Shown in pieces: positions 3,814 to 9,968 of a stretch of DNA of 45,331 bases. The position numbers and the translations under genes are program-made. Source of the DNA: Bryobacterales bacterium (GTDB lineage Bacteria > Acidobacteriota > Terriglobia > Bryobacterales > Bryobacteraceae); assembly GCA_025350625.1 (NCBI GenBank), contig JANXXL010000155.1, positions 1 through 45,331 on the forward strand, in the 5' to 3' direction. Below the pieces are notes generated by a model. It was given only the letters and a program-made list of their open reading frames with translations, was not told the origin of the DNA and did not search any database. Each line of letters begins with the position of its first letter. Positions within the stretch are counted from its first letter, which is position 1.

Positions 3814-6228
3814 TTGAATCGTTGGATTCCACTCGCGTATGGGTCTGTGGCCCTGATTTTATTAATCGCAGGTGTGGGCGGCTATCAAGCGATGGTCGTG
3901 TCCAATCAAAGCGAACGATGGGTGTCGCACACGCACGAGGTGCTTGAACACCTCGGAGATTTGCAGCGCGAACTAGAGAGTATCCGGTCGGGCTACCACG
4001 GGTTTGCGCTAACCGGACAGGAATCCTTTCTCAAGTCCCACGACGCCAGCATATTAGAGATCGAACTCACTGAAGCAACCATCCGTAATTTGACAATCGA
4101 TAATCCCCGGCAACAGCCTCGGCTTCGAGCAATCGAAACGCTTGCAGGTCAGCAGATCCATTTCGGGGATCGAGTGGTTGGCCTGCGCCGCGCCCAGGGT
4201 TTGGAGGCGGCCGCGGATGCGATTCGCAAGGGAGAAGGGCGGCGGGTTCAGGAAGATCTAGCAAGGGTGGTCGGCGAAACCCGGGGCGAGGAACTGCGAT
4301 TGCTCGTGCTGCGCAATTCGGATGCGAAACGGCGCTTGAGACAGGCCAAGTTGGTGATGATCCTCGGAGTCGTCGTGGCCTTGTTTATGGCTGCTGCTTA
4401 TGTTTGGAGCGTAAAGCGCGAGATCCATGCACGCAGGTTTGCCGAGAACGAGCTACGGGAAGGTGAAGAGCGTTTCCGCACTTTGGCGAATAATATTTCC
4501 CAGTTGGCGTGGATGGCCGATGAAAAGGGCTGGATCTTCTGGTACAACGAGCGATGGTTCGACTATACCGGCACCACGTTGGAAGAGATGGCCGGCTGGG
4601 GGTGGGAAAAGGTGCATCACCCGGACCACCGGCAGCGGGTGGTGGACAAAATCTCACATTGTTTCCGCACGGGAGAGATCTGGGAAGACACGTTTCCCCT
4701 GCGCAGCCGCGATGGCGCCTACCGCTGGTTCCTCTCACGGGCCGTTCCGATCCGGGATCCGAACGGGAGTATCCTGCGCTGGTTTGGCACGAATACCGAC
4801 ATTACCGAGCGCAGGGAAGCAGAAAAGGAAGCTCTTCGCGTTGCCCTGGAACGCAAGGTCATGGAAGAGGAGCTATTCCTTCAGAAGGAACGCCTTGAGG
4901 CGGAACGCAAACTGCGCGAGAGCCAGGCCAGTTTTCGGTCCCTCGCCGATGCCATGCCTCAAATAGTCTTCACATCCAAGCCCGATGGCAGCCTGGATTA
5001 CTACAATGTCCGCTGGTACAACTACACGGGAATGACCTTCGAGCAGACTAAGGATTGGGGTTGGCGTCTGGTGATGCATCCGGATGACTTGCCAAACACC
5101 ATGAAGGCTTGGACCGGCGCCTTAAAGTCTGGCGAGCCCTTCGCGGTCGAATATCGTTTCAAAAGGGCTAGCGACGGTGTTTATCGGTGGCATTTGGGAC
5201 AAGGGAGTCCCATTCGAAACTCGCAAGGAGCTGTGGAGCGATGGTTCGGCACGTGCACTGACATTGAGGATTACAAGGCAGCTGAGAACAAAATTAGAAC
5301 TATGAATGACGAGCTCGAGGAACGCGTTCGCGATCGTACCGCAGACCTCGACCAAAGCCTCCAGCAACTGGCCGCGGTGAATGTGAAACTGAAGGACTCC
5401 TCCTCCATGCTGGAGCGTAGCAATCGCGAGTTACAGGACTTCGCGTCTGTGGCTTCTCACGACCTACAGGAACCCTTGCGGAAAGTTCAGGCCTTCGGAG
5501 ACCGGCTGAAAACTATGTGCGACGGGGCGTTGAACGTGGAAGCCAGCGACAATCTGGATCGAATGTTGAATGCCACCAGGCGGATGCAGTCCTTAATTCA
5601 AGATCTGTTGAAATTCGCCCGGGTCACTAGCCAGGCGAGTCCCTTCCTGCCGGTGGATCTGGCGCAGGTAACGCGAGACGTGCTGTCTGATCTTGAAGTG
5701 CGAATTGCTGAAACCAACGCTCAGGTGGAGGTAGGTAATCTGCCGACGATTGAGGCGGATGCCGTCCAGATTCGCCAACTCTTGCAGAATCTCATTGGAA
5801 ACGCACTGAAGTTTCACCAAAAGGGAAAGCGGCCGGAAGTTCGGGTGTCCGCTAATCAGGCCGGTTCCGAGCACACGAAGGGTGGCATCTTGCAACTGGT
5901 CGTCGCAGACAACGGCATCGGTTTTGACGAGAAATACCTGGACCGGATCTTCACAATGTTCCAAAGGTTGCACAGCCGGGCCGAATACGAAGGGACGGGA
6001 ATGGGCCTAGCTATCTGCCGCAAGATCGCCCAACGACATGGGGGAGAAATTAGCGCCACAAGTACCCTTGGGCAAGGAACCTCGTTTCTTGTCACCCTTC
6101 CGGTTCGACACATTGTCGAAAACACAGTTCAAATTCTTGACGGCAAAGCCGATAGAAGCATCGAGATGCTGAATGCTGCGGTCAACGCGAATCCACGCGC
6201 GATCTCCATTCGCGGAAAGCTTTTGTGA
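3814..6228 (+). CDS. CHASE3-PAS-PAS sensor histidine kinase
   Basis: Membrane sensor kinase of 804 residues. TM1 (about 4-26) is followed by a helical extracytoplasmic domain of CHASE3 type (about 30-170, including the typical GYHGFALTGQE segment) and TM2 (about 178-198). PAS domain 1 (about 218-335) and PAS domain 2 (about 370-490) both contain the WFGTxTDI segment of PAS_3-type folds and are joined by a charged coiled coil. A second coiled coil leads to a phytochrome-type HisKA domain with His549 in ASHDLQEPLRK, then HATPase with DNGIGF and GTGMGLAIC. There is no receiver; the partner is probably the small response regulator whose GTG start overlaps this stop (GTGA). The start must be TTG at 3814 because a stop (3793-3795) lies just upstream in frame. 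Confidence 0.92.
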   Translation: MNRWIPLAYGSVALILLIAGVGGYQAMVVSNQSERWVSHTHEVLEHLGDLQRELESIRSGYHGFALTGQESFLKSHDASILEIELTEATIRNLTIDNPRQQPRLRAIETLAGQQIHFGDRVVGLRRAQGLEAAADAIRKGEGRRVQEDLARVVGETRGEELRLLVLRNSDAKRRLRQAKLVMILGVVVALFMAAAYVWSVKREIHARRFAENELREGEERFRTLANNISQLAWMADEKGWIFWYNERWFDYTGTTLEEMAGWGWEKVHHPDHRQRVVDKISHCFRTGEIWEDTFPLRSRDGAYRWFLSRAVPIRDPNGSILRWFGTNTDITERREAEKEALRVALERKVMEEELFLQKERLEAERKLRESQASFRSLADAMPQIVFTSKPDGSLDYYNVRWYNYTGMTFEQTKDWGWRLVMHPDDLPNTMKAWTGALKSGEPFAVEYRFKRASDGVYRWHLGQGSPIRNSQGAVERWFGTCTDIEDYKAAENKIRTMNDELEERVRDRTADLDQSLQQLAAVNVKLKDSSSMLERSNRELQDFASVASHDLQEPLRKVQAFGDRLKTMCDGALNVEASDNLDRMLNATRRMQSLIQDLLKFARVTSQASPFLPVDLAQVTRDVLSDLEVRIAETNAQVEVGNLPTIEADAVQIRQLLQNLIGNALKFHQKGKRPEVRVSANQAGSEHTKGGILQLVVADNGIGFDEKYLDRIFTMFQRLHSRAEYEGTGMGLAICRKIAQRHGGEISATSTLGQGTSFLVTLPVRHIVENTVQILDGKADRSIEMLNAAVNANPRAISIRGKLL

Positions 6229-6686
6229 AAACGAACAGCCGCCCGATGGTTATCCTGATGGCCGACGACGACGAAGACGATCGCCTGTTGGCGGCCGACG
6301 CTTTGCTGGGTTCCAAACTGGCAAACAAGTTGATCACGGTCAACGACGGCGAAGAATTGATGGATTACTTGCATCACAGGGGAAAATACGCGCCTCCGGC
6401 GATCTCACCCCGGCCCGGTCTGGTGTTACTAGATCTAAACATGCCTAGAAAGGACGGTCGTGAGGCGATGCGGGAAATAAAGTCCGATCCCAAACTGCGT
6501 TCCATTCCAGTGGTTATTCTGACTACTTCGAAGGAAGAAGAGGACATCGAACGCGGTTATGACCTGGGCGCGAATTCATTCATCACGAAACCGGTGACTT
6601 TCGATGGGCTCCTGGAGTCCTTAAGGGTGGCCACTGAGTATTGGTTCCAAGTTGTCCAGCTTCCCCACGGAAATAAAGAGCCCTAG
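6225..6686 (+). CDS. Rcp1-type single-domain response regulator
   Basis: A 153-residue stand-alone receiver of the Rcp1 subfamily, which typically serves phytochrome-type kinases. The acidic pocket is MADDDEDDR, the phospho-acceptor is Asp70 in LLDLNMPRKDG, the switch Thr lies in VVILTTSKEEEDI, and the conserved Lys-Pro is in FITKPV. There is no output domain, so it must act by protein contact or pass phosphate on. The GTG start overlaps the upstream kinase stop by 4 bases, strong evidence of a cognate pair and translational coupling. The next gene begins one base after its stop. Confidence 0.93.
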   Translation: MKTNSRPMVILMADDDEDDRLLAADALLGSKLANKLITVNDGEELMDYLHHRGKYAPPAISPRPGLVLLDLNMPRKDGREAMREIKSDPKLRSIPVVILTTSKEEEDIERGYDLGANSFITKPVTFDGLLESLRVATEYWFQVVQLPHGNKEP

Positions 6687-6687
6687 C

Positions 6688-8739
6688 ATGGAAGAAGCGA
6701 CGGCAGTTCGCGTGCTGCTGGTGGATGACGACGAAGACGAATACGTCATCGTCGGCGGTCTGCTCCAGGTTACTGGCTCGGATCGCTTCCGTTTGAGCTG
6801 GGCATCGACATACGAGCAGGGTCTCGAATCGATCCAGTCGGAGTTGTGCGATGTCTGCTTGGTGGACTACCGTCTGGGGGGCCGGACGGGGCTGGATCTG
6901 TTGCAGGAAATAACCGCCCGCCCTAACCATCCTCAAGTCATCCTGTTAACCGGCGAAGGAGATCGCAGCGTAGACGTTACCGCGACGAAAGCGGGCGCGG
7001 CGGATTACCTGGTCAAGGGCGGGCTGACGTCCGCGGCCCTCGAACGGTCGATCCGGTACGCCGTCGAACGTGGACACATCCTGAAGGCATTGCGGGACGC
7101 GAGTGAATTGGCGCAGTCTATGAATCTTGCCAAGAGTGCTTTCTTGGCTACCATCAGTCATGAGATACGGACCCCGATGCACGCCATTCTTGGAATGGCC
7201 GACATGTTGTGGGAATCGCCTCTGGATGCCGATCAAAGGCAGTATGTGGAGGTGTTCCGGCGAGCGGGTTCCGGATTGCTGAAGCTGATCAACGATATTC
7301 TCGACCTGTCGAAGATCGAGGCAGGTCACCTCGAATTGGAGCGGGTGGAGTTCGACTTGGAAGAGACGGTGGATCAGGTGATCGAATTGGCCGCTGTGAA
7401 GGCGCGCGCCAAAGGTCTGGTCCTGATGTCCCATTTGTTGCCGGGCGTCGCGACCTCCCTGATCGGCGATCCTACGCGCCTCACACAGGTGCTGACCAAT
7501 TTGCTCGGGAACGCCCTAAAGTTTACCGCTTCGGGCGAAATCATCCTTACCGCCAGGAACCAGGCGGCCGGTAAATCCGGCGAAATCGAGTTTTCTGTTT
7601 CAGACACGGGCATTGGAATTCCGGCGGATAAGCTCGACAAGATCTTTGAGGATTTTACGCAAGCGGAAGCCGCTACCGCCCGCAGGTATGGAGGAACGGG
7701 CCTGGGCCTTGGAATCAGCCGCCGGCTGGTAGAGGCCATGGGGGGAAGCCTGACGGCATCCAGCCGCGACGGCATCGGGAGTACTTTCCGCTTCATCGCC
7801 AAGTTCGAAGTGACGCAAACCAAATCCCGCGAGGCCCCTGATGCCTACGCCGACGTGGGCGGCAAACGGGTGCTCCTGATCGACGCCACCACCACAAGCA
7901 GGCTAATCCTATCGGAAACGTTCGAGGCCTGGGGGCTAAGCTGTGACGCGTTTCAGTCGACGAGCGAGGCGCTGTCCCATCTTCGCGAATCGATGGCCGG
8001 TGAACATCCTCATTCGCTGGTCGTGATGGAAAACGAAGTTCCCAGCATAGACGGCTTCGATGTACCTGCTGAAATCAGCCGGATCGCGGGAAGCGTCCCG
8101 GTATTGGTGCTCGGGTCGGATGCCCGCCCAGCGAAGTCGGGGTTGGCGCGATATGCTATGAAACCAGTATCGCGTGCGCGGTTGCTGCGCATGGTACGTG
8201 AGGCTTTGAGAACAGGAGAGGCGCAGGAATGCCAGCCCACCACCGCCCCAGCGGGGCACCGTGAACAGCGGGCGGTGCACCCGGCGAGAATCCTTATTGC
8301 CGACGATTCGCCCGACAACCAATTGCTGATTCAGGCGTATTTGAGGAACCGGCCGTATCAGCTAACTTTTGCGGAGGATGGCCAAGCGGCGTTGGATCGG
8401 TTTGCACGTTCCAGATTCGATTTGATCTTAATGGATGTGCAAATGCCAGGAATGGACGGTCTGACCGCCACCCGCGCTATCCGCGCGATGGAGCAGGAGC
8501 GGCGAGTGTCGCGCACTCCTATTCTTGCGATGACAGCGAACGGCAGCTTGGAGGACGTGAAAAGAAGCCTCAATGCTGGCTGCGATGCTCACCTGTCCAA
8601 GCCCACCTCAAAACTGGAACTCCTCCATGCCATAGAAATGTACCGGCAGCCGGGACAAATTTTTAATAAAGAGTCTCCTTGTGAACCGATACCAATCGAG
8701 GCACCGCCAGGCTTGAGGACATCGTCCCGGGCTATCTAG
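6688..8739 (+). CDS. Soluble hybrid kinase: REC-HisKA-HATPase-pseudoREC-REC
   Basis: Cytoplasmic hybrid kinase of 683 residues with no TM helix. Domains in order: N-terminal receiver (Asp60 in LVDYRLGG), HisKA (His158 in ISHEIRTPMHAILG), HATPase (LTNLLGNALKF, DTGIGIP, GGTGLGLGI), a degenerate receiver (about 390-500) in which the phospho-acceptor is Glu448 and the second pocket acid is missing, and a canonical receiver (Asp583 in LMDVQMPGMDG, followed by MTAN and KPTS). ATG at 6688 is preferred over an upstream TTG (6652) because AAAGAG sits 7 bases before it and it avoids a 35-base overlap. After the final receiver the frame runs a few residues into a linker and stops, while an HPt domain continues in the -1 frame. 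The intact ancestor was probably REC-HK-REC-REC-HPt. Confidence 0.9.
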   Translation: MEEATAVRVLLVDDDEDEYVIVGGLLQVTGSDRFRLSWASTYEQGLESIQSELCDVCLVDYRLGGRTGLDLLQEITARPNHPQVILLTGEGDRSVDVTATKAGAADYLVKGGLTSAALERSIRYAVERGHILKALRDASELAQSMNLAKSAFLATISHEIRTPMHAILGMADMLWESPLDADQRQYVEVFRRAGSGLLKLINDILDLSKIEAGHLELERVEFDLEETVDQVIELAAVKARAKGLVLMSHLLPGVATSLIGDPTRLTQVLTNLLGNALKFTASGEIILTARNQAAGKSGEIEFSVSDTGIGIPADKLDKIFEDFTQAEAATARRYGGTGLGLGISRRLVEAMGGSLTASSRDGIGSTFRFIAKFEVTQTKSREAPDAYADVGGKRVLLIDATTTSRLILSETFEAWGLSCDAFQSTSEALSHLRESMAGEHPHSLVVMENEVPSIDGFDVPAEISRIAGSVPVLVLGSDARPAKSGLARYAMKPVSRARLLRMVREALRTGEAQECQPTTAPAGHREQRAVHPARILIADDSPDNQLLIQAYLRNRPYQLTFAEDGQAALDRFARSRFDLILMDVQMPGMDGLTATRAIRAMEQERRVSRTPILAMTANGSLEDVKRSLNAGCDAHLSKPTSKLELLHAIEMYRQPGQIFNKESPCEPIPIEAPPGLRTSSRAI

Positions 8740-8765
8740 CGAATTGCACAAAGGATGTTCCGGAA

Positions 8766-8975
8766 ATGTTCAATCTCCTGGCCGCATCCGACTTTTCGCG
8801 CGTGGCGGTGTTATCCCATCAACTGAAAAGGACCGGCGAAGGATATGGCTTTGCGGAAATCAGCCGGCTTGGCGCGGCGTTGGAACAGTTCGCGCGCGAA
8901 AAGGATAGCGTAGCCCTGCGTTCCCACATGACTGAGCTTGGAGACTATCTCAACAAGGTGCGGTTGGTCGCGTGA
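8766..8975 (+). CDS. Frame-displaced histidine phosphotransfer (HPt) domain
   Basis: Codes for the core of an HPt domain. His18 in LSHQLKRTGEGYGF matches the HPt phospho-histidine helix, and the helix after it (LGAALEQFAREKD) fits the four-helix bundle. As a free ORF from ATG 8766 it has only 69 residues and lacks the N-terminal helices. The same frame stays open back to 8685 and encodes a fitting helix (LEDIVPGYLANCTKDVPEM), but that part has no start codon and overlaps the end of the hybrid kinase in another frame. The most economical reading is that the domain was fused to the upstream kinase and is now separated by a -1 shift around 8700-8712, through mutation, assembly error or recoding. 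See findings. Confidence 0.7.
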   Translation: MFNLLAASDFSRVAVLSHQLKRTGEGYGFAEISRLGAALEQFAREKDSVALRSHMTELGDYLNKVRLVA

Positions 8976-9252: not shown

Positions 9253-9608
9253 TGGTGGAGGCGGCGGGAGTTGAACCCGCGTCCGAGAAAGTCAATCGCA
9301 AAAAGACTACGTGCGTTTCCGGTTCGGTATTTTTCGTCCACCCCATGCGGAACCGGCAAGAGGGGGATGGCTTAGCCTGATTGATCTCGGCTTTCAGCTC
9401 CAGACGGAAGCCTTAGGCCTATCCTGCAAGATGACGCTCTTAGGACCGGTGCAGGCCCACGACCCCAGAGCGGCAGCCTAATTAATTAAGCTGCGTATGC
9501 GAACTGCTGATTATTGGCAGTTGTTGTTTTCCGATCGTTTTACGGGAGCTCGGAACCCGGCACGACTTCCCACGACGGATGCAATCCCGTCGAATCCGTT
9601 GCGCCCCC
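9253..9608 (-). ncRNA. ssrA: Transfer-messenger RNA (tmRNA)
   Basis: On the minus strand the RNA starts GGGGGCGCAACGGATTCGAC, the conserved tmRNA 5' end, and finishes with a T-arm containing GGTTCAACTCCC, then CGCCTCC and an encoded CCA. The 5' GGGGGCG pairs with 3' CGCCTCC over seven bases with a G-U at the third pair, as in the tmRNA acceptor stem. An internal reading frame at 9518-9486 reads GCC then N-N-Q-Q-F-A-Y-A-A and TAA, giving the tag (A)ANNQQFAYAA. It ends in the small, apolar residues that ClpXP-type proteases recognise. Length is 356 nt, normal for a one-piece tmRNA. It rescues stalled ribosomes and tags the nascent protein for degradation. A clpS-like gene starts 27 bp away on the other strand. 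Confidence 0.96.
9486..9518 (-). other. tmRNA proteolysis-tag reading frame
   Basis: Eleven codons including TAA on the minus strand: A-N-N-Q-Q-F-A-Y-A-A. The resume codon appears to be GCC after ACAACAACT. It is assigned by working back from the TAA and from the A-A ending typical of tags; the exact resume position is inferred. Confidence 0.75.
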
Positions 9609-9635: not shown

Positions 9636-9968
9636 TTGGCATCCCCTACCATCACCCCTCAAACCGGGACCTCGGAAAGCGAACGTCTCCTTCCGCTCTA
9701 CCACGTCGTTCTGCTCGATGACGACGAACATACCTATGACTATGTGGTTGAAATGCTGGGGGCGCTGTTTTTCCTGCCGCTCGAAACCGCCTATCAACAT
9801 GCGGTCGAGGTGGATACCCGGGGCCGGACCATCGTAATCACCTGCGAGCTGCCGCAAGCCGAATTCGCGCGCGATCAAATTCACGGCTATGGCGCCGATC
9901 CACGCATGGCCACGTCGAAAGGGTCGATGAAAGCCGTTATCCAGCCGGTTCAGCCAGGCTCCGGTTAA
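9636..9968 (+). CDS. clpS: ClpS-like adaptor of the Clp protease (divergent)
   Basis: A 110-residue protein. After about 20 residues of flexible N-terminus comes the ClpS core: LYHVVLLDDDEHTYDYVVEML (21-41), a middle helix, and VDTRGRTIVI followed by the AE-type helix AEFARDQIHGYG. ClpS binds N-end-rule substrates, hands them to ClpA/ClpC, and lowers degradation of ssrA-tagged proteins. Classical ClpS has Asn-Asp-Asp in the pocket loop and a His in VHxxG that contacts the substrate amino group; here these positions read Asp-Asp-Asp (28-30) and Asp60. The start is TTG at 9636. Its stop overlaps the convergent VWFA gene by three bases. Family assignment is good; pocket function is uncertain. 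Confidence 0.85.
   Translation: MASPTITPQTGTSESERLLPLYHVVLLDDDEHTYDYVVEMLGALFFLPLETAYQHAVEVDTRGRTIVITCELPQAEFARDQIHGYGADPRMATSKGSMKAVIQPVQPGSG

Follow-up and report, generated by a model that had tools for sequence, protein, structure and literature searches.

The window analysed here, 45,331 nucleotides long, takes in the full length of contig C258, one of 417 in a Bryobacterales draft genome of 5.09 Mb that is 89% complete and 5.5% contaminated. Its forward strand encodes a CHASE3-PAS-PAS histidine kinase (3814..6228), recognised by Pfam and as a conserved neighbour, and a single-domain response regulator (6225..6686; Pfam Response_reg), both lying upstream of, and probably in the same operon as, a hybrid histidine kinase (6688..8739). 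Pfam matches and a check of the phospho-sites resolve the latter into the order REC-HisKA-HATPase-pseudo-REC-REC, behind which an HPt domain with four predicted helices (8712..8975; Pfam Hpt, homologues and AlphaFold model) is encoded on the same strand in the -1 frame relative to the kinase. A tmRNA gene on the minus strand (9253-9608; tag peptide ANNQQFAYAA) is situated just downstream of the HPt, and a clpS-like gene (9636-9968) comes after it.

The mechanically defined ORF of the hybrid kinase opens at TTG 6652, with ATG 6688 being the more plausible start, and ends at TAG 8737-8739. Within this frame the HisKA and HATPase motifs are intact by both Pfam and motif inspection; the HisKA phospho-His codon lies at 7159-7161 and the phospho-acceptor Asp of the first receiver at 6865-6867. 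The last receiver (8290..8640; Pfam Response_reg), which stands before the HPt, likewise retains its acceptor Asp (8434-8436). In the middle receiver, Glu (8029-8031) replaces the phospho-acceptor Asp; the corresponding residue is Asn in the related kinase of genome G241 and a retained Asp in that of G202, a variation that marks this receiver as degenerate in part of the family. The order HisKA-HATPase-REC-(REC)-HPt is that of tripartite kinases of the ArcB and BarA/GacS type, and it recurs in the relatives and, allowing for the frame change, in the window. Unlike those systems, the window kinase has its HPt in another reading frame, an N-terminal REC in place of the sensor and a middle receiver devoid of the acceptor Asp. 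Its N-terminal REC is closest to the syntenic gene of G082 (57%), whereas its core and tail are closest to the non-syntenic G241 protein (60%), and these differing affinities suggest that the kinase at 6688-8739 is a chimera.

The HPt frame is open from 8685 to 8975 and contains a phosphorylatable His codon (CAT, 8817-8819) that aligns with His in 65 of 69 other HPts. The whole -1 frame reaches 25.2 bits with Pfam Hpt (PF01627), for which the curated threshold is 24.6; it shares 58% identity with the HPt of G241 across 86 residues (E about 1e-26); and a family HMM built without the window sequence gives it 108.5 bits, rank 13 of 70. Taken together, these scores indicate that the HPt is not a chance ORF. 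An AlphaFold model of the domain alone has four helices at moderate confidence (mean pLDDT 69); the nearest solved folds are HPt proteins, with weak Foldseek E-values, and the nearest solved HPt by sequence is RcsD/YojN (1sr2). Helix 1 of the model spans residues 10-33 (8712-8783), and the only ATG, GTG or TTG that precedes the His in this frame, ATG 8766, falls inside it. The sole ORF with a usual start (8766..8975) consequently encodes 69 aa without most of helix 1 and, at 21.5 bits, scores under the Pfam cut-off of 24.6. With ATG 8766 as the first usual start, the start and ribosome site ahead of helix 1 that would characterise a stand-alone HPt gene are absent. An earlier, sequence-only reading of this DNA had located the kinase stop, the open -1 frame and the His codon exactly where we find them, and had correctly remarked that the first helix lacks a start codon.

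Local alignments with three relatives place the switch of homology out of the kinase frame and into the -1 frame at 8712..8715 (forward strand). Matching in the kinase frame ends with Leu 8713-8715 (kinase residue 688), and in the HPt frame it begins with Leu 8712-8714 (HPt residue 10); both residues fall on a single homologue position (1030 in G241, 1181 in G202 and 1507 in G231). In all three, local and multiple alignments alike give a zero-gap junction, with no residue missing or added. Since both Leu codons fall on the same homologue residue, the ancestor was one continuous protein, now interrupted by one -1 shift at about 8712-8715. The single shift proposed by the sequence-only reading is thus upheld, and its position, previously put at 8700-8712, is moved by homology to the very end of that interval. 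Past Leu 8713-8715, the kinase frame runs into an out-of-frame tail, RTSSRAI, and its stop (8716..8739), which has no homology to the relatives. Rather than sharing an ORF with the kinase, as in a hybrid REC-HK-REC-REC-HPt protein with a covalent HPt, the HPt lies in the -1 frame, outside the kinase ORF that stops at 8737-8739. Completeness of the phosphorelay in cis hinges on this break, as had been anticipated.

Relatives were sought in 237 genomes of the same family. The comparison with orthologues that had been proposed as a check did reveal in-frame fusions: the closest relatives, in G241 (1118 aa; 53% and 58% identical), G202, G231 and G076, each form one uninterrupted reading frame that holds receivers and HPt together, as do further relatives. 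Among 70 distinct HPt domains gathered from all loci, the window's included, 61 follow a receiver in the same frame, six are short ORFs without a receiver immediately upstream, and three have the receiver in another ORF, namely the window, G080 (L178) and G145 (L190). The latter two were rejected as comparable breaks because their upstream receivers are separate response-regulator genes, and no relative among the 70 HPts collected displays a comparable receiver/HPt frame offset. A near-identical copy of the locus was found neither in the same genome nor, at the protein level, in the 237 same-family genomes (best HPt 58%).

The neighborhood of regulator, CHASE3-PAS kinase and REC-HK gene is kept in G007, G048, G147 and G213 and partly in G082 and G081, with copies of the regulator (59-64% identical to that at 6225-6686) beside REC-HK genes in G007, G048, G147, G213 and G082. 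The third gene of this syntenic set varies at its C-terminus: it has an in-frame HPt in G082, ends after a receiver in G147 (where the stop is seen), and in G007, G213 and G048 has no domain beyond the kinase core. Such natural variation counts in favor of HPt loss, as does a 1033-aa kinase from the same genus (G009:C314, L171), whose in-frame HPt carries Arg at the site of the phosphorylatable His (RNMKG).

Beyond the frame break, the window HPt departs from its relatives at the H+4 position, where the codon AGG (8829..8831) specifies Arg instead of the small residue found elsewhere (Gly in 67 and Ser in two of the 69 relatives); this Arg is unique among the 70 HPts. A published survey of some 10,000 HPts counted Arg at H+4 three times (PMC6341664). 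Replacement of the H+4 residue of yeast Ypd1, G68, by Val, Leu or Glu lowered phospho-acceptance to <3%, and Gln allowed 40% acceptance with almost no relay onward (PMC6341664). The window shares with this series a large residue at the same structural position, although Ypd1 is a yeast protein and Arg was not among the substitutions assayed. By this analogy, the H+4 Arg would constitute a second, independent lesion, predicted to abolish phospho-acceptance, and a second lesion at this site favors real loss over a pure assembly error. We also considered general decay of the HPt and rejected it: a relative-rate comparison of window-only with G241-only changes did not set the HPt apart from the kinase (Fisher p 0.49 to 1), the domain has a typical HMM score (rank 13 of 70), and only the H+4 lesion stands out. 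With the HPt otherwise undecayed, the loss, if real, is recent. This lack of decay weighs against loss, as does the fact that only one substitution is involved at H+4; departures at one of the four best-conserved columns are also seen in 6 of the 69 other HPts.

We consider it probable that the in-frame REC-HK-REC-REC-HPt ancestor recently lost its HPt through one frame break at about 8712-8715, and that what survives is a seemingly intact kinase beside a dead HPt remnant. The kinase would still autophosphorylate and most likely hands its phosphate on, either to the last of its own receivers or to the neighbouring single-domain regulator (6225-6686). There would be little or no translation of the remnant, which would also be a poor phosphate acceptor; it most likely does nothing, because its only usual start lies inside helix 1 and its H+4 residue is Arg. 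An HPt step, if needed, might be served in trans by another HPt of the genome, in which we detected six other Hpt matches. The picture is more that of commonplace gene erosion than of a novel mode of translation. Its consequences concern chiefly this single gene, whose annotation as a complete phosphorelay would be wrong, and it offers a small example of hybrid kinases losing a terminal relay domain.

The break, or even both lesions, could also be consensus errors. On an assembly-error reading, the organism would have an intact in-frame kinase-HPt and the contig would be wrong at one place. We regard an assembly error as rather unlikely, yet as an explanation to be taken seriously, given the draft state, incompleteness and contamination of the genome, the in-frame arrangement of all close relatives and the good conservation of the HPt outside H+4. 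There is also a precedent in a relative: in G081:C187 (L227 12181-12182), a run of two N splits a co-architectural kinase into two apparent ORFs, a split that we rejected as an assembly artefact. On the other hand, no long homopolymer occurs at the break, no second frame-broken gene was recognised among the roughly two dozen window genes scanned with Pfam, and the damaging H+4 Arg would require a second error or a coincidence.

That the HPt is instead made as a small protein of its own, from ATG 8766 or from an unusual start, appears improbable to us. A published parallel exists in Yersinia pestis, where the frameshifted rcsD gives rise to a separate, working small HPt protein from an AUU start, with about 1% readthrough (PMC10191623); there, as in the window, a frame break parts a C-terminal HPt from a kinase-type protein. 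The Yersinia case shows a split of this kind to be workable. Yet what enables it there, a start and ribosome site placed before the domain of an active HPt, is absent from the window, where the start lies inside helix 1 and H+4 is Arg. An AAGGA about 10 bases before ATG 8766 and the existence of stand-alone HPt genes in relatives would suit a working split; however, the product from ATG 8766 is without most of helix 1 and under the Pfam cut-off, inspection by eye finds no suitably spaced ribosome site for ATC 8721, a candidate rare start, and the H+4 Arg predicts lost phospho-acceptance. The cut-down HPt from ATG 8766 contemplated in the sequence-only reading is for these reasons unlikely to work. 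A variant with a real functional break, in which kinase and small HPt with the H+4 Arg persist as two proteins, the HPt acts as a binding decoy or serves a different partner, and the phosphorelay is rewired as in frameshifted rcsD, we hold to be very improbable.

The remaining proposal, true -1 programmed frameshifting that yields a minor full-length kinase-HPt, draws on the overlap of the two frames for about 50 bases (8685-8739) and on the low-level readthrough measured for the rcsD frameshift (PMC10191623), but is extremely improbable, and we rejected it because phase, RNA structure and conservation all speak against it: of two nearby XXXYYYZ heptamers (8657 and 8726), neither is in phase and the first precedes the opening of the HPt frame, no in-phase X XXY YYZ slippery heptamer lies within the overlap, the RNA downstream of the site shows no unusual stimulatory structure (fold against shuffled sequences, z -0.78), and the frame offset is kept in no relative. 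No report of programmed frameshifting in a hybrid kinase turned up in a search of the literature. Accordingly, of the readings first put forward, the in-frame ancestral fusion and its single break hold, whereas recoding does not; it is the relatives, together with the second lesion at a catalytic position, that tell a recent frame break from programmed recoding. Elsewhere in the same genome, a further hybrid kinase on the minus strand (G000:C325, L202; about 322-1377) contains an in-frame TAA between its HATPase and its receiver, and the receiver continues in the same frame past this TAA.
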